IMG/VR virus record: IMGVR_UViG_3300005732_000005 | Location: 1-64,000 of that record | Reading direction: 5' to 3' (one strand) | Source: a virus | Length of the DNA: 64,000 bases | Part shown: in pieces, positions 20,966 to 59,338 of the stretch | Numbering within the stretch: the stretch's first letter is position 1 | Layout of the letters: each line of letters opens with the position of its first letter | Notes under the pieces: model-generated | Seen by the model: the letters and a program-made list of their open reading frames with translations, nothing else | Databases searched by the model: none | What the model was told of the DNA's origin: nothing | Translations under genes and position numbers: made by a program

Positions 20966-23610
20966 TTATAATGAACAACTTTCACAATCTGGTGCTTTAC
21001 CTTCGTCACCTCTTCCTGTCTTACTCACAGAGTAATATAATGTTTTAACACCCATACTATTTCCATAGTAGAAGTTTTCGTGCATCTCTTGCTTAGATTG
21101 CTTCTTGTTCTTGTATTTACTGAAATCTACATAAGTATCAGCACTGATAGTTTGGTCTGTAAATTTCTGAACAATAGCATAAAGGTTTAGAATATCTTTG
21201 TGATCTAAGTCATAAGCAATCTCATAATTATACTTATCACTATCAGGTGCAAAGAACTGAACCTTACCTTTCTTACTATCTTTATATACAAGAGTGTTTC
21301 TTGCTGGATAGATACTGTTTAATCCACCAGAAGCTAAACTACTTGACTCACAAGGCATATGGCAAGCAATAACACTAAACCTTACACCACTCTCCTTAAT
21401 ATCCGCTGCTAAAGATTTCCAGTCATAAATATAGTGGTCTTTAACAAGCTTGTCAACATTCTTATTGTAAGTTTCTAATGGTGTCCAACCTTCTGACCAC
21501 TTAGTCTTATCAATGAATTCAAAAATGCCACGTTCTTTAGCAAGCTTCACACTAGCTTTTAATAGATAGTAATAATGCCTCTCTGACACTTCGTGTAAGA
21601 ATTGTAAATCTTTATAAGACTTACCTTCTCGTGCTACAAGTGTTGCTAAGTTTGTCATACCTACTCCAACACTACGATAAGCTTGTGCTGTAGCGCGTAA
21701 TTGAGGGAAAGGGTAATCCATATTCTCAATTAGATTATCTAAACTCTTTAATACAATGTAAGCCGTTTCCTCATAATCTTTGTCATCTTCGATGTTAGCA
21801 ACATCAATAGCTGATAAGAAACACTGTGCTGTAACACCGTCACCTTCTTCATACTCTGTTTTATACAACTCTGTAATATGATTATAAGGTTTTGTTGGTA
21901 ATAAAACTTCCTGACCATTTATCCCTCCATTTTCATGGGGCGTGGACTATATCATCACCTGTTCTAGGTGTTGGGCGCTAATGTGGTTATTAAGCTCTCA
22001 AGCTCCACTAGTCTCTGAACGTTCTCTATCCTTAGAGCTTCGCTGCTGATTGGCATAGGTAACCCCTTAGCTTTCCAGCAATTCACCCAATTTTTCAATA
22101 CATATTCCTATGTAAAGCTGCGTCAATTTCACAGATTTGAAAGTCTTATTGTTTCTTTAAAAGGTGTATGTCGATTACCTTCTGTTACGTTATATCTGTA
22201 AAGTCTTCCTGTCTCAGATCTAACCTCTAAGTAAAGATCTACAATGTCATAAGCACTTACCTCTACTTTCCTTGCATTATCATCTGCAAGTATATTGTCC
22301 ATAATCTCTGTAAAGCGAGTTAAATCTTTAGAATAAAACTCTTCGTAAAGTTCAGGATAATCTGCACGACTTACTAAAGCTACCTTTTCACGTCTAGCTG
22401 CTCTACGTAACACATCGTGATTCACTCGGAAAGAGTAATCTAACAATTCAATTCTACGTTCTTCTGGACTACGTGGGAGCTTCAATCGTAACAAGTTTTT
22501 AATCTCAGGGTCAATACATTCGAAGCTCACTGTCGCACTACCACCTCTGGCAGATTGTGTCACCTCTTTCACGATACGGTTAAGAGTTTTATAATGTGGA
22601 AGTTTGCCACCTGCCTTAGCATAACCATTTCTGACATCATCTTTTGGACTACGGACATCGTATTCAACACCCAAACCTGCACTAGATGCTGTTGCCATAA
22701 AGGCTACGTGCTTAGAAGCTTCAATACCGTGTAAACTATCGCCTGCAGTTGTAATAACACAACTTACTCCGATGTTACTCTTTGTTCGTTGACCTGATAA
22801 TACTGGAGATGGAATGTTAATCTTATTACTACGTGCTTTATGGTAATACATAATAACATCATCTAAGCTATCTTTTTCCATCAAACTCATAGCAACACCC
22901 ATATACATATACTGAGGTAGCTCTACAAGCTGGCCTTTACCGTCATATTTTAAATATTTATCTATAAATTGACGAATAGTTGGGTAACCGTAGTTAAGGT
23001 CGTAATCGTGGTCAATGAAAGATGCTAAATACTCAATATCTTCTTCGGAGTAATTCATCTCTCTCCAATGACCTTCTGAAACAGCCCACTCATAAAAGTC
23101 CACAAAATCTTTGGGGGCAATTGAACTATTTCGTAAATCACCTAGTAACAAACGACCTGCAACTTTATTGTGTTGATAATCTTCTTTATCTAAACAAGCT
23201 TGGATTAAAGCATCTTGAACAGTTTTAGAAGATACAATACCATCTGGTAACTTCCTAACTGCACTCATAGCAATAGATGACCAATTAACATTATCTGTAT
23301 TTGCTACTGCCCATACTGCCATAGAATTTAGCTTATCTGCTGACCATTCTTCTTTACTGCCGTCACGTTTTAATACGACACGTTTATTAAGCAAATCACC
23401 CACAGTATTAGCACTGTCGCTTTCTCCGTGATATTCACCATTAACAAAAATTTGTGGAACAGTTCGGAAACCTTGGTTACGGATAAACTCAAAAGAATCT
23501 ACATCTTCTGAAATGTCTACATAGTTGTATTCGATACCTTTACTATCTAAAATATTTTTAGCCTTATCACAGAAAGGACAATTCGGTTTACCATATACAA
23601 CTACTTCCAC
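20966..23610 (-). CDS. nrdA: Glutaredoxin-NrdA fusion, ribonucleotide reductase alpha subunit; two exons, 809 aa
   Basis: Exon 1 is 23610-22131 and exon 2 is 21915-20966; joined they keep frame. Residues 1-75 are a glutaredoxin (CPFC, then TVPQIFVNG). An ATP-cone follows (VVLKRDGSKEEWSADKL), then the R1 barrel (GVSCVITTAGDSLHG with the first redox Cys, SNL-C-QEVLLPTKP with the radical Cys, AQCFLSAIDVA with the second) and a C-terminal CESC swivel pair. The intron splits the radical-Cys codon. Fusing the electron donor to NrdA is uncommon. Confidence 0.9.
21916..22130 (-). ncRNA. Group I intron in nrdA, 215 nt, no ORF
   Basis: Removing these bases joins CTG-T to GT-CAG and restores SNLCQEVLLPTKP. 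Exon 1 ends in T and the intron ends in G, as group I splicing requires. GAGACTAG and GATATAGTCC are the paired P7-type elements, and GCTGGAAAGC...CAATCAGC makes the P4-P6 core. It is too short to encode an endonuclease, so mobility would need one supplied in trans. Confidence 0.85.
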
Positions 23611-25283: not shown

Positions 25284-26120
25284 CTAATCAGTTATCATTT
25301 CAAAACCAATCTTACCAAGATGTTCATAACCTGTCAACTTAAAATATTCTCGTGCATGCCAATCTGGTACATAAATATCTGACATCATATTGATTTTAGA
25401 GTTTACTTCAACAACAGGATTGATGTCAAGCGGTTTACGCTTCAACATTTCATAGACACCTTCCAAATGTGGCTCGTAAATGTGTGCGTTGGTTATATTA
25501 TGTTTCACAACTCCTTGTTCCAAACCTGCAATATGGGAGAGTATCTTATTCTCAATCCATAAACTGAATGCGTTAAAAGGTTTCCCAACCGCATAATCTG
25601 CAGATCTTTGCGTTGCCCTTGTATGTAGCTTCCCGTCTAGAATAGTATAAATTGTTTGGAACAAGCATGGGCGTAGACATCCCTTGTCAAACAACTCTGG
25701 CCTCCAGAAATTCATTATCAGTCCACGGTCATCTTCGTGCATAGCTATCTTATTCAACAATTCTGGAATTTCATGAGGTTCTGTAGCCGCACCATACACT
25801 CGACCCATATCGTCAACACCTTTACAATAAGGTTTATTTTGCCACGAATCTTTGTTGGCATCCTTGAACCAAGTAGGGCTACCTATATCTGCAAACTGTT
25901 GTGCATTACAATAAGCTCTCCAATACCCAACCCTCTCTGCCCAACTGCTTACTGGGAAGCATTGTTTTACTGTTAACAAAGACACATCTTCAGGTTTGTA
26001 GGTGAAATCTAGGAAAGGAACTGTTAAACAATCCACTCCTGTTCGCTGATTCTTAATCCACTTACCTTCATCTAAGATATACTGTAACGCATCTAGATAA
26101 TCTTTTTCATATTTTAACAA
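25284..26120 (-). CDS. thyA: Thymidylate synthase, 278 aa
   Basis: It makes dTMP from dUMP with methylene-tetrahydrofolate. LRPCLFQ (Cys152 nucleophile), TQRSADYAVGKPFN (phosphate and base contacts, keeping the Asn that selects dUMP) and IYEPHLEGV identify ThyA. RGLIMNFWRP lies just before the active Cys. The kept Asn argues against a dCMP hydroxymethylase. It groups with DHFR and the reductase genes. Confidence 0.85.
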   Translation of the reverse strand: MLKYEKDYLDALQYILDEGKWIKNQRTGVDCLTVPFLDFTYKPEDVSLLTVKQCFPVSSWAERVGYWRAYCNAQQFADIGSPTWFKDANKDSWQNKPYCKGVDDMGRVYGAATEPHEIPELLNKIAMHEDDRGLIMNFWRPELFDKGCLRPCLFQTIYTILDGKLHTRATQRSADYAVGKPFNAFSLWIENKILSHIAGLEQGVVKHNITNAHIYEPHLEGVYEMLKRKPLDINPVVEVNSKINMMSDIYVPDWHAREYFKLTGYEHLGKIGFEMITD

Positions 26121-26420: not shown

Positions 26421-26525
26421 TTCTTCTCCTAACAAATTAATTAAAGGGACAAGACAAGCTTGCCCGTTATTGTAAAGTTACACCCCAATCCCCTCAACCA
26501 TTCACCCTTTTAAGGAGTAAATTTT

Positions 26526-26792
26526 ATGGAACACAAGATAAACCCTGACGATATAACTAACTTTTATCTAGTAAATGTTGAAACAGGTAAACATTTCGAG
26601 GGTTTCGATAAAGATACTGTAATATCTTCCCCGCTACCACCTAAAACAGGTGAATACTTAAATCAATCAGGTTGTTATTTTGAGGTTGTAGGTATTCTTC
26701 AACACTTTGATCAGAACCTTGTAGAAGTTTTCGCAAAAGGTTTAGGTGATAGCTCGGCTTTTCTAAGATACCTACAAAACAAAGTTCAGTAA
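26526..26792 (+). CDS. Hypothetical protein, 88 aa
   Basis: The ATG follows AAGGAG. Small alpha/beta protein (FYLVNVETGKHFEGF). It diverges from thyA's upstream gene and converges on the gene at 26786-26965. No family is recognised. Confidence 0.65.
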   Translation: MEHKINPDDITNFYLVNVETGKHFEGFDKDTVISSPLPPKTGEYLNQSGCYFEVVGILQHFDQNLVEVFAKGLGDSSAFLRYLQNKVQ

Positions 26793-26965
26793 GTCCAAGT
26801 AGGACTTTTTACTGCGTGTCTATATAATTCTTCATAGGCACGTTCATTCACAGTTTCACGGTACTCTGTGAGCAAAGGTACAACCTTATCTAAGATTTCT
26901 TTTTGCTCTAAAGTTTTCTTACCAAGAGCTTTTTGTAAATCTAATAAAATATGATCTAATTGCAT
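26786..26965 (-). CDS. Small helical protein, 59 aa
   Basis: Read from an ATG with AGAGGAA upstream to a TGA. Helical, with alternating charged and leucine-rich stretches (LLDLQKALGKKTLEQKEIL). Its end overlaps the convergent gene by 7 bases, including the shared terminator hairpin. No family is recognised. Confidence 0.55.
   Translation of the reverse strand: MQLDHILLDLQKALGKKTLEQKEILDKVVPLLTEYRETVNERAYEELYRHAVKSPTWTY
26791..26810 (+). terminator. Rho-independent terminator
   Basis: AAGTCC and GGACTT pair around AAGTA and are followed by TTT. It ends the gene at 26526-26792. It lies inside the end of the convergent gene on the other strand. Confidence 0.7.
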
Positions 26966-27066
26966 AATAAATTTTCCTCTAAATAAATTAATAAAAGTGT
27001 AATCTATTGTAATAAGTGTTTGTTTTAACTTGTGGTAAATTGTTCGCTTTAAATGGAGCTTTTGTT

Positions 27067-27453
27067 ATGAAAACCCTTTATAAAATAGACAAACACTTAT
27101 CAGACAAATTACTAAAACATATGTTTAACTCTTATGTTAATCACAGAGGAGAAACAACAGGAAGTCTATCTGACTATTGCTTCAACCCTCTATCTGAAAA
27201 CACAATACCTGAGTTACTTACAACCAATGAAAGTGGTAATTCTGTTAATAAAACCTCTGATTATTTCAGGGACTTTGAAAAACGTGGCTTACTTACTCAA
27301 AACGGAGTTTGTTATTACTTGACTGAAGAAGGTTACAAACAAGGTCTAAAGGTAAGTCAGCCTGTAAAACAATTCTTAAAAACACAGTGGAAATGGTATT
27401 TACCTGTAGTCCTTTCTTTAGTTGCCGCTACCACAGGAATACTACGCTTATGA
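27067..27453 (+). CDS. Winged-helix-like protein with C-terminal membrane anchor, 128 aa
   Basis: The ATG at 27067 with ATGGAG upstream is preferred; a -35/-10 pair (TTAACT, 17 bases, TTTAAA at 27025-27053) overlaps the earlier codons. NSVNKTSDYFRDFEKRGLLTQNGVCYYLTEEGYKQG reads like a winged-helix recognition helix and wing. Residues 110-127 (WYLPVVLSLVAATTGIL) form one membrane helix. It may be a membrane-tethered regulator. It lies just before the first attC site and could itself belong to a cassette. Confidence 0.5.
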   Translation: MKTLYKIDKHLSDKLLKHMFNSYVNHRGETTGSLSDYCFNPLSENTIPELLTTNESGNSVNKTSDYFRDFEKRGLLTQNGVCYYLTEEGYKQGLKVSQPVKQFLKTQWKWYLPVVLSLVAATTGILRL

Positions 27454-27511
27454 TAGTTATTGCACACATCCACCAAGCTATGTAGACATCTTCATCCTCT
27501 TTCTTACTCAA
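27428..27511 (-). CDS. Possible antisense membrane peptide, 27 aa
   Basis: A TTG start behind TAGGGGT opens a 27-residue frame with one hydrophobic stretch (IAWWMCAITIISVVFLW). It overlaps the end of the gene on the other strand. Weak evidence only. Confidence 0.2.
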   Translation of the reverse strand: MSKKEDEDVYIAWWMCAITIISVVFLW

Positions 27512-27553
27512 AATATACCCCTATATATAAATTACATAAACAAATATAATGTG

Positions 27554-27612
27554 GTGTAACAAGTGGTTAAACTAGGAATCGCTTCGCTCTCCTGTTAACC
27601 AAGCGTTATAAC
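27554..27612 (+). other. attC-type integron recombination site, copy 1
   Basis: TAACAAGTGGTTAA (27557-27570) pairs with TTAACCAAGCGTTA (27595-27608) except at the AAG/GCT step next to the outer box, as in attC sites. Inside, AGGA/TCCT pair and a GCTTCGC loop lies at the tip. The right end is GCG-TTATAAC; strand exchange would fall after 27605. The outer boxes do not match RYYYAAC/GTTRRRY at every base. Confidence 0.75.
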
Positions 27613-27643
27613 CTACACTATCAACCCTGAAAGGAGTTTTAGA

Positions 27644-27886
27644 ATGTCCTATTACAAAGAACCTTACCATTTCAAGGCAGGTTTCCATCCAAAATGTCCC
27701 AACTCAGAATGTAAGAGTACTAATATAGATATATCACTTTCCGAACACCTGTACGGTCCTGCTAATGGTAATTATGAAGTAATATACTGTAAAGACTGCC
27801 ATACATTCTTAGGTGCTCATCCTGTAGTAATTCAAAATCTACATCCAGATATTAAAGATGAGGATAAGATCAAACTGGGTGACTAG
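27644..27886 (+). CDS. Zinc-ribbon-like cassette protein, 80 aa
   Basis: The ATG follows AAAGGAG. HPKCPNSECKS (residues 17-27) and VIYCKDCHTFLGAHP (about 46-60) supply two cysteine pairs in a zinc-ribbon arrangement. No family is recognised. The gene starts 32 bases after attC copy 1 and reads toward attC copy 2, exactly as a gene in an integron cassette does. Confidence 0.65.
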   Translation: MSYYKEPYHFKAGFHPKCPNSECKSTNIDISLSEHLYGPANGNYEVIYCKDCHTFLGAHPVVIQNLHPDIKDEDKIKLGD

Positions 27887-28034
27887 GCTGTTTAGTTGCC
27901 GTATTTGCTTTGGCTAGTGCTAATAAAGCTTCAATCCTGATAATTCTCTGGGTTTCTGCTGGTGTGTTTTCTAAACTTCTACAATCATTAGCCAAAGCAG
28001 CAATTGCTGCAAAGATGTCTCTGTTGTTCATAAT
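27870..28034 (-). CDS. Small alanine-rich helical protein, 54 aa
   Basis: The ATG at 28034 follows TAGGAGAAA. IFAAIAALANDCRSLEN and IRIEALLALAKAN suggest two helices. It is antisense to the cassette's main gene at the 3' end and lies wholly between the two attC sites. No family is recognised. Confidence 0.45.
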   Translation of the reverse strand: MMNNRDIFAAIAALANDCRSLENTPAETQRIIRIEALLALAKANTATKQPSHPV

Positions 28035-28060
28035 TATTTCTCCTATTTTCAATTTAGGGT

Positions 28061-28122
28061 GTTATAACAAGTTAATTAAGCGGACTTGCTTCGCCTGCCG
28101 CTTATTAAGGCGTTACTTTAAC
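28061..28122 (+). other. attC-type integron recombination site, copy 2
   Basis: TAACAAGTTAATTAAGCGG (28065-28083) pairs with CCGCTTATTAAGGCGTTA (28098-28115) except for the AAG/GCC step and one unpaired T in the left arm, the expected extrahelical base. The tip carries GCTTCGC, as in copy 1. Both copies face the same way. Strand exchange would fall after 28112, giving a 507-bp cassette. Confidence 0.85.
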
Positions 28123-28132
28123 AAAACTCGAA

Positions 28133-28387
28133 TCAGTTGTCAACACTTCCAACACTACTTTCTTCAAGCCATTTATCAAAATCGTCGTCTCCAGAGTAAT
28201 CTACTTCTCGATTAACAAGGGTATACATTTCCTGAGAAGCTGCTAACCACATTGCTGCCTCTAGAGCATTATCAAACTCTTCAATGACTTCCTTTGTCTC
28301 AAAGTTGATTAGTGCAGAAGGTTTGTTCTTTCCTACACCAAAATCTACTTCAATAAGGTTATTTTCTTCCACAATATTATCGCTCAA
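28133..28387 (-). CDS. Hypothetical acidic protein, 84 aa
   Basis: A TTG start at 28387 behind ACGAGGTG is preferred, since upstream codons overlap the previous gene in another frame. Strongly acidic C-terminus (YSGDDDFDKWLEESS). Helical centre (ALEAAMWLAAS). No family is recognised. Confidence 0.5.
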   Translation of the reverse strand: MSDNIVEENNLIEVDFGVGKNKPSALINFETKEVIEEFDNALEAAMWLAASQEMYTLVNREVDYSGDDDFDKWLEESSVGSVDN

Positions 28388-28517: not shown

Positions 28518-28705
28518 TATTGTTTCTCCTCGTTAAAAACCACTTTTCGGGTAGATTGGAATAATGTAGAAAGATTACTACTTGTATGATAGTTATTCAC
28601 ACTACCAGTCCAATGCTTTCCAATATAACCACACCTTGTTAAACGTTCATTTTGTGTATATTCATTTAGCTCTTGTGCTGTTTTACATTGTTTGTATGAT
28701 GTCAT
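28517..28705 (-). CDS. Small hypothetical protein, 62 aa
   Basis: The start at 28705 has GGAGGAAC just upstream. Polar, with NERLTRCGYIGKHWTGSVNNYHTSS in the middle. It overlaps the endonuclease VII gene by 4 bases. No family is recognised. Confidence 0.6.
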   Translation of the reverse strand: MTSYKQCKTAQELNEYTQNERLTRCGYIGKHWTGSVNNYHTSSNLSTLFQSTRKVVFNEEKQ

Positions 28706-29199
28706 AGTTCCTCCAACCACAGTTTAATATATTCTTGGACAAGAGATTTCTTATCCAAGCCAGAAATTCTTTTTCCAAAGTCTGTGAGTATCTTATCCTC
28801 AACTTTATCCTTTGTCAAACGATCTATTTTCTTTCTAACCTCGTTCATATAAGCATAGTGATAAGGTTTATCAGAATTATCTTTCTTAAGGTAGTTTCCC
28901 ATTCTAACAAGGAATTCTGGAAAGTCAATATCATATTTCTGCTCAATCTTCATTTTCTTAAATAACCCTAAGAAACGTCCTTCTAGCATATTAACTTCAC
29001 TTGTCAGAAGACCTCTTACCTTTCCATCACATCCTATCCCATTATCGTGGGTATGGTCAAGGACTAAATTTCCCGAATGACCAGTTATTTCACACAATTG
29101 TTCCAGAGAGTCTTTATATTCCTTAACACCCTTTGCGTTACGTAACCAGTCTTCGGGAAGAGAAACCCCTTTATGAGGTTTCTTTCTTCTTTTTGTCAT
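28702..29199 (-). CDS. Recombination endonuclease VII-like protein, 165 aa
   Basis: It probably cleaves branched DNA such as four-way junctions before packaging. LVLDHTHDNG, GKVRGLLTSEVNMLEG and the surrounding spacing match the His-Me finger core of T4 endonuclease VII. The usual N-terminal CxxC zinc pair is not complete. It lies directly after the RuvC-like gene, with a 29-base overlap. Confidence 0.75.
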   Translation of the reverse strand: MTKRRKKPHKGVSLPEDWLRNAKGVKEYKDSLEQLCEITGHSGNLVLDHTHDNGIGCDGKVRGLLTSEVNMLEGRFLGLFKKMKIEQKYDIDFPEFLVRMGNYLKKDNSDKPYHYAYMNEVRKKIDRLTKDKVEDKILTDFGKRISGLDKKSLVQEYIKLWLEEL

Positions 29200-44553: not shown

Positions 44554-44628
44554 TGGAGCGACATATCGGTTACGATCCGATGACTCCGACTTGGAAGGAC
44601 GGGATTTTTCCAATTAAACTAATGTCGC
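44554..44628 (-). tRNA. tRNA-Gly (anticodon TCC), CCA encoded, atypical
   Basis: The 7-bp acceptor stem GCGACAT/ATGTCGC is perfect, followed by discriminator T and CCA as in bacterial tRNA-Gly. The D-arm GTTT-AATTGGAA-AAAT fits. The anticodon loop is CTTCCAA, closed by CCGTC/GTCGG with one T-T mismatch. The T-stem ATCGG/CCGAT is perfect but its loop ATCGTAA lacks the usual TTC and A58. Could be functional or decaying. Confidence 0.65.
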
Positions 44629-57240: not shown

Positions 57241-59338
57241 ATGTCAAAAGATAAACAAGAACCTTTCTTTAAACCTGCAAGTAAAAAACAAGCTCTTATG
57301 TTAAAAAGAGCTTCTGATACTCAAATATTGATTATCGGTGGGGCTTAAAAATCCAGTGGTCACACCTTAAACTATCCTGCTAATTCGGTGGAAGCTAAGT
57401 GTTTATACTAACATACGCCAATACCGAGCCGAATGATTAAATTCATGGGTGTAGAGGTCATCTCGTAAGAGAGTAGAGTTCAAGTGGACTCGAAACGTAG
57501 GACTGTATACCAATACAGAAGATATGATCCGACAACACAGGAAACTGTGGAAAGAGTGTAACGACTCTAAAACTGTCTCAGATTAAAGGCTGGTTCTGGG
57601 AAAAGTACGATATTAAATCACCTGCCTCTTATGTTACTAGATGACCCCAAAACAAACTGCATCTTGTATCGTAGGACAAATCCTCAACTGTTAGGTGGTC
57701 TTTGGCCTAATGCTAGAGGAATTTACGAAAAACTTCCAAAAGCTTATGAACCTAAGGCTATAAGAGATCATAAGATGGAAGTAGTATTTAAGAATGGAGC
57801 TAAAATAAAATATCAACAAGCGGAGAACGTGGCTAAATCTAAGAATGATGCTCAAGGTCAGGAGTTCACGTTTGTCGGAATAGATAAAATTTGTCTATTT
57901 GAAAGGTTTTTAGCATAATTATTTTAATGATTATAACCTTTCTGGAAAAATTGTGTGAATTCGGTGGAACTCTTTGTAAGACAATACCGAGCCAAGGTTA
58001 CGGGGTAACTCGTTTCAAGGTGTAACGACTAGAGAATACGAACCTAGAGGGTTTATGAATCTCGTACAGCCAAGTGGTAGCGAAAGCTTTAAATGGAAGC
58101 GCACAAACTCTAGCTAAAAGAGTAAGATATAGTCTCAACTTCTACGGTGACGTAGAGATGCAGGTAATGCTGCTGGTAAAGATTAACGAACTTTATTGAA
58201 GATATTGGAAGGTACACAATTCGAGTGGGAACAAATAGAGTACTTTATGTCACGTCTACGTTCCCCCTCAAAACACTTCTCCCGTATGGTAATCTCATGT
58301 AACCCCGACCCCGACCATTATATTAGGACGATGATCGACTGGTACTTAGACGAATCTGGTTATGCTATACCTGAAAGAGATGGGGTAGTAAGATACTTCG
58401 TACAGGAAGGTGGTGAGTATGTATGGGGTAATTCTAAAAAAGAGTTAGGTGAAAAGTTAAATTTACCTAAAGATCGTTGGGAAGATAAGATCCTCAGCTT
58501 CTCGTTTGTTAGTGGGACGATCTACGATAATCCGATTATGATGGAGATTAACCCGTCATACTTAGCTTTCTTAGAAGGTCTTAACGATGTCGATAAGGCA
58601 CAGTTACTTCACGGATGTTGGGATGCCAGACCTCAAGGTGCTAATTACTGGCAAAGAGAATGGGTAACGGAGATACAATCTAAAGATGTAGACCTAAGTT
58701 CTATGAGAAAGGTAAGAACATACGATTTAGCGGCAACAGAACGTAGTCAGGTAAATAAAAGCCCTGACCCAACAGCTTGTGCTCTTATGTGTAAAGACCG
58801 TAATGGTTATTATTACATTGCAGGTAACTATCATCCAGATTTTTATGATGACTACTATGAGATATATGGTCAATTCTGTAAACGTTCTGGGGATAGGGAT
58901 ATGCATATAATAAAACAAGGTCATCATGACACAGATGATACTGTAATCTTGTTGCCAGTGGATTGTGGCGCTGCAGGTAAGACGGCTTTCACTGCCATGG
59001 CTTCAAACTTTATGCAAGAAGGCTTTACAGTAAAGGCTGACCCTACTCCAAACAACAAGACAAAATTGGTAAAATTTCAGCCATTTGCAACGGCAACAGA
59101 GAACGGGCTTGTATATGTGTTGGTAGATACTTTTGATAAGAAGACTTTAGAGTTTATATACAAACAACTAGAAGCTTTTGATGGAGAAAGGTCTACAGCC
59201 ACAAAACATGATGAATTTCCAGATCTATTGGCGAGCGGGTATAACTATCTCTCAAGAGAACGTGTCATCAAACCCTTCTCCCTTCCAGATTGTTCCTCCT
59301 CCACAAAATACACTTCTTATCGAAACTCGATAAAATAA
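57241..59338 (+). CDS. Terminase large subunit, three exons, 510 aa
   Basis: Exons are 57241-57345, 57589-57885 and 58208-59338. Joined they read IIGGA-AGSGKS (Walker A) and FVGID-EGTQFEW (Walker B), which no single frame contains. RTYDLAATE, LLPVDCGAAGKTAF and DEFPDLLASGYNYL supply the three acidic sites of the RNase H-like nuclease. It powers DNA packaging and cuts the concatemer. Without splicing the gene is broken three ways. Confidence 0.9.
57346..57588 (+). ncRNA. Group I intron 1 of terL, 243 nt, no ORF
   Basis: Exon 1 ends in T, the intron ends in G, and removal gives GGA-AGSGKS. The core AATTCGGTGGAA...AATACCGAGCC matches intron 2. GAAGATATGATCC is the P7-type element. It interrupts the Walker A loop codons. 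Too short to encode a nuclease. Confidence 0.85.
57886..58207 (+). ncRNA. Group I intron 2 of terL, 322 nt, no ORF
   Basis: Removal joins FVGID to EGTQFEW; exon 2 ends in T and the intron in G. AATTCGGTGGAAC...AATACCGAGCC repeats intron 1's core, with AACGACTAGAG and AAGATATAGTC as P7-type partners. It splits the Walker B strand from its catalytic Glu. Confidence 0.85.

Follow-up and report, generated by a model that had tools for sequence, protein, structure and literature searches.

Clusters of attC sites lacking an integron integrase (CALINs) were described in virulent phages by Qi et al. 2023 (PMC9892861). One of them is carried by Pseudoalteromonas phage PH101, two attCs of which recombined with attI1 via IntI1 (PMC9892861). 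Other cases reported in the same work (PMC9892861) are Tetrasphaera phage TJE1, Polaribacter phage P12002L and MW202573; as published, they likewise contain attC clusters without an integrase, but differ in their hosts and in their cargo, which includes DNA methyltransferases.

The window, as the DNA analysed here is called throughout, makes up positions 1-64,000 of a virus record 140,374 bases long. The named phages closest to it, from Vibrio, Pseudoalteromonas and Shewanella, have genomes of 129-141 kb. No phage nearly identical to it was found in the collections, and hence neither an excised nor an empty version of the locus. A group of attC sites is located between the genes encoding thymidylate synthase and endonuclease VII, over about 1.7 kb if the decayed site attC0 is counted. 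The interval between these two genes also occurs in the relatives, where its annotated genes all run in one direction. The region 26430-28115 is very probably a CALIN on a large marine phage, with cassettes that a host integron integrase could move. The first-pass annotation had implied that such an element was novel; attCs in virulent phages, including the relative PH101, had already been published (PMC9892861), and the present array is an additional member of the class. New are its different genome position, its different cargo and the presence of one decayed site.

PH101 is the most similar described system. The two phages are related, similar in size and share the same block containing endonuclease VII and thymidylate synthase; both carry several co-directional attCs, mostly 51-52 nt long, along with small unknown genes and reverse ORFs starting beside an attC. 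They differ in that the PH101 array lies beyond the ribonucleotide reductase genes, in the cargo genes, and in the number of attCs, as four sites score in PH101 (KR534323) with the covariance model described below, against two plus one decayed site in the window. Recombination was demonstrated for PH101 attCs and is predicted for the window sites. The sedentary chromosomal integrons of Vibrio, Shewanella, Rheinheimera, Alteromonas and Pseudoalteromonas are alike in attC sequence and structure, in attC orientation and in cassette sizes; unlike them, the phage has no intI, and neither convergent gene pairs, in the bacterial cassettes sampled, nor the cassette gene P0001 were found there.

The features of the region are the following.

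25284-26120, thymidylate synthase gene, flanking the array
26430-26480 (+), attC0, putative decayed attC of 51 nt, like attC2, with intact TAAC/GTTA R boxes and an eroded right arm
26526-26792 (+), ORF P0005, 88 aa, opening the attC0-attC1 cassette, ribosome-binding site AAGGAG
26786-26965 (-), ORF of 59 aa, ribosome-binding site GAGG, tail to tail with P0005 with a 7-nt overlap
27067-27453 (+), ORF P0003, 128 aa, closest gene on the 5' side of attC1
27557-27608 (+), attC1, 52 nt, 38.3 bits, E 6.9e-6 in 203 kb
27606-28112 (+), 507-bp gene cassette, measured between the two cleavage points
27644-27886 (+), P0001, zinc-ribbon ORF with two Cys pairs, 80 aa, ribosome-binding site AAGGAG
27870-28031 (-), ORF P0002, 53 aa, ribosome-binding site AGGAG, start adjoining attC2 on the cassette side
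28065-28115 (+), attC2, 51 nt, 48.2 bits, E 3.9e-8 in 203 kb
28702-29199, endonuclease VII gene, flanking the array

Identification of the attC sites

The sites were scored by a covariance model, R1, made for this analysis and distinct from the IntegronFinder model, which was built on 49 bacterial-type attCs. Starting from the integron integrases of a Vibrio phage integron, a Shewanella prophage integron and plasmid R100, 80 bacterial integron loci were collected, from Vibrio, Shewanella, Rheinheimera, Alteromonas, Pseudoalteromonas and others; the attCs were drawn from these loci and from two prophage-borne integrons of bacterial type. Training sites were cut to 25 bases per end, their attC structure was assigned by hand, and the set contained no site from the window or PH101. 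Run on the integron loci and on plasmid controls, R1 recovers 83 sites, with scores from 18.7 to 50.6 bits. A finder demanding a minimum-energy fold missed most true sites.

The scores of attC1 and attC2 fall inside this bacterial range, and the two sites are the sole matches at E <= 1 over the whole 140-kb genome. With the filters of R1 turned off and a 5-kb target, the E-values are 9.5e-10 for attC2 and 1.7e-7 for attC1. In ten related phages (about 1.36 Mb) a single spurious match was obtained, 23 bases long and scoring 17.7 bits, so that 2 of the 12 genomes of the phage group carry attCs; as the ten other relatives have none, the array is to be regarded as an acquired insertion.

Two co-oriented attC hairpins had been proposed in the first-pass annotation, and the model confirms both. 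They are separated by 456 bp, and their G^TT cleavage points fall between 27605 and 27606 and between 28112 and 28113, which makes the 507-bp spacing given there exact. The motifs that it listed, i.e. TAACAAG at the start, GCGTTA at the end, three-base unpaired steps and a GCTTCGC tip, are all present as described. In the R1 alignment the central spacer that separates the R and L boxes has three unpaired bases on each side, column 13 is an extra-helical base, unpaired in all sites, and attC1 and attC2 retain every paired position of the model. Both fold into continuous hairpins, with the bottom strand slightly favoured (-10.6 vs -8.1 and -9.8 vs -9.1 kcal/mol). Among the phage sites the 12-pair stem is kept with compensatory changes, 93% of cells being paired, and the covariation score is 0.361, compared to 0.121 in shuffles.

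The outer boxes, GTGTAAC..GTTATAA and TTATAAC..GTTACTT, had been considered deviant, and the copies possibly old or specialised. Neither suggestion is supported: both sites contain the R boxes TAAC/GTTA with flanking triplets within the bacterial spread, marine bacterial attCs often show the similar boxes ATATAAC..GTTATAT or GTTATAA, and the scores are those of bacterial sites. attC1 and attC2 pass every attC test of sequence and structure that was run, and their identification is supported.

Comparison of the arms revealed that attC1 is identical to the first PH101 attC at 37/44 positions, against 32/44 for the best bacterial attC compared, which hints at a common phage or host source. For attC2 the best matches are found in Shewanella (36/44) and PH101 (35/44). 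A promoter-like site is located at 28115-28143 (-), with TTGACA and TAAAGT separated by 17 bases, and points leftward into the cassette from just outside attC2; such sites are no commoner here than by chance.

The third site, attC0, is weak when taken alone, with an R1 score of 12.9 bits (E 0.11 in 5 kb, 4.4 in 203 kb). It is nevertheless the best non-self match of attC2 in its own genome (34/51 over 280,248 positions), while a maximum of 31/51 was reached in 60 Markov replicas used as a control. It has the same orientation as attC2 and is located at the edge of the stretch interrupting the leftward operon. For its sequence it is read as a probable decayed attC, and this decay suggests weak selection for mobility of the array. 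Two further candidates were rejected: a possible relic at 27026-27067, directly 5' of P0003, scores 8.7 bits and has no stem, and an attC2 match near genome position 113134 (32/51; L012 9134) lacks a complementary right arm.

Cassettes and cargo genes

With attC0 counted, the array is arranged as attC0, a 1.13-kb cassette (26478-27605), attC1, the 507-bp cassette and attC2. In the latter cassette P0001 is read in the attC orientation and is followed by attC2 at the 3' end, as in a typical gene cassette. The integron-type reading given in the first-pass annotation is supported by the attC tests, the cassette size and the co-orientation of the sites; of the single gene and two sites then described, the zinc-ribbon gene stands, while the leftward P0002 and the decayed attC0 had been overlooked. 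P0001 and P0002, each with a good ribosome-binding site, are placed tail to tail with a 17-nt overlap; an extra reverse ORF of this kind is unusual in a gene cassette.

P0001 matches no family or solved structure, P0005 matches no family, and P0003 shows a weak winged-helix similarity, below cut-off. None of the cassette genes matches any known integron cassette, and no relatives of P0004, P0005 and P0007 were found in IMG/VR by back-translation. A similarity between P0005 and a cassette protein of PH101 was discarded, as it spans just 19 residues, and no cargo protein is convincingly common to the two phages.

A protein 82% identical to P0001 is encoded in a single Vibrio genome (1 of the 228 searched in the genus). 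The two genes use different codons at 38/64 identical residues, so that P0001 is to be considered an old gene, strongly conserved as a protein. No relative was found in 109 genomes from the genus of Pseudoalteromonas sp. EB27, searched with no positive control there, and none was confirmed among GTDB contigs scanned with back-translated patterns. A Vibrio superintegron had been indicated as a possible source of P0001, and vibrios as the hosts between which cassettes could pass. The results do not support either idea. The sole close relative of P0001 adjoins prophage-like genes and has no attC beside it.

A convergent gene pair is found in each of the two window cassettes and in a single intact cassette of PH101, while 0 of 74 bacterial-type cassettes, all from Gammaproteobacteria arrays, pass the same layout filter; the phage sample is small and its members are not independent. 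This layout, common to PH101 and absent from the 74 bacterial-type cassettes, may be regarded as a mildly new point and, if held in more phages, would set phage cassettes apart from bacterial ones. A second PH101 cassette would also be convergent if an in-frame TAG were read through: its ORF (L002 3138-3365, +), which meets the cassette's reverse ORF tail to tail, is open save for this TAG at codon 9, which may reflect a sequencing error, decay or readthrough. Cassettes 1 and 3 of PH101 contain different genes within the same 5' leader (L002 3053-3140, 4461-4545) and the same 3' attC with leader (L002 3560-3661, 4960-5063), a pattern of constant ends around exchanged cargo.

Origin and possible mobility of the array

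The 140-kb record, which may be a fragment, contains no integron integrase (TIGR02249), and no PF00589 match or recognisable tyrosine recombinase is encoded in the genome. The intI gene of a complete integron is thus missing. As at least two neighbouring attCs are present and no integron integrase lies in their vicinity, the region is classed as a CALIN. As the phage has no integrase, any movement must rely on a host IntI acting on a folded single strand.

The following course of events may be proposed. The phage would enter a bacterium with an active integron integrase; replication or repair would expose one attC strand as single-stranded DNA, the hairpin would fold, and the host IntI would cleave the folded attC at G^TT. 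The outcome could be a circle of the 507-bp cassette, formed by attC1 x attC2 recombination, an insertion into the host attI, or the gain of a cassette by the phage. That a host IntI would use attC1 and attC2 is expected by extension from the recombination of PH101 attCs with attI1. The phage may have first acquired the array when an IntI used a secondary site, or when ordinary recombination took place with an array of the host.

The sites could also be transcription terminators or regulatory hairpins, resembling attCs by chance. The position of attC2, flanked by two leftward genes, and a weak terminator-like pattern overlapping its right arm would suit such a role, but neither hairpin is followed by a proper T run, unpaired steps and an extra-helical base occur at the attC positions, and R1 gives E-values of 4e-8 and 7e-6. 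Hairpins acting as ordinary terminators in related phages, which had been indicated as evidence against the cassette reading, were not found in any of the ten, as no such hairpin is present in their DNA. An origin by chance is hence considered extremely improbable. A larger, though still minor, share of probability goes to the view that the sites descend from true attCs but no longer function, the array fragment that carries them having been acquired by ordinary host-integron recombination and decaying since. This view agrees with the CALIN reading about the identity of the sites, but not about their present activity. The state of attC0, the lack of an integrase in the phage and the occurrence of attCs in just two genomes of the group are in its favour; against it stand the complete pairing and bacterial-like scores of attC1 and attC2, and the recombination obtained with PH101 attCs in the published assay (PMC9892861).

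A wider proposal is that phages whose marine hosts bear integrons maintain a separate stock of two-gene, bidirectional cassettes. The host integrase would move these cassettes and phages would trade them, and both strands could be expressed in a phage operon. The proposal agrees with the convergent pairs in the window and PH101, with the presence of a separate ribosome-binding site for each convergent gene close to a cassette end, and with attC1 being nearer to a PH101 site than to any bacterial attC compared. However, phage cassettes are very few, those sharing both ends in PH101 are not independent, the bacterial comparison is confined to Gammaproteobacteria and the cargo proteins of the two phages are not convincingly shared; the proposal is therefore judged doubtful. 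If it is true, integrons would provide virulent phages, and not just bacteria, with a means of exchanging genes.

The reading of the region as a CALIN whose cassettes are movable by a host integrase remains the favoured one. After PH101, the region adds a second example, differently located, of cassettes bounded by attCs within a single group of large marine phages, and lends further weight to the published view that integron cassettes can be ferried between bacteria by virulent phages. In addition, attC1 and attC2 are two natural sites suited to the published recombination assay.

Similar sites in other viral sequences and further features of the genome

A pattern scan of IMG/VR for phage-type sites yielded PH101 as the only match. 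A looser pattern selected 14 other stretches, 9 of which pass R1 at E <= 0.01 (L116, L123, L125, L126, L124, L115, L127, L119 and L114); these nine may contain further phage or prophage cassettes.

Within the window, two group I introns were detected at the Rfam gathering threshold, at 21924-22140 (-; 95.4 bits) and 57915-58157 (+; 65 bits), one of the two being near the terminase region. A tRNA gene is located at 44557-44628 (-; 50.5 bits).
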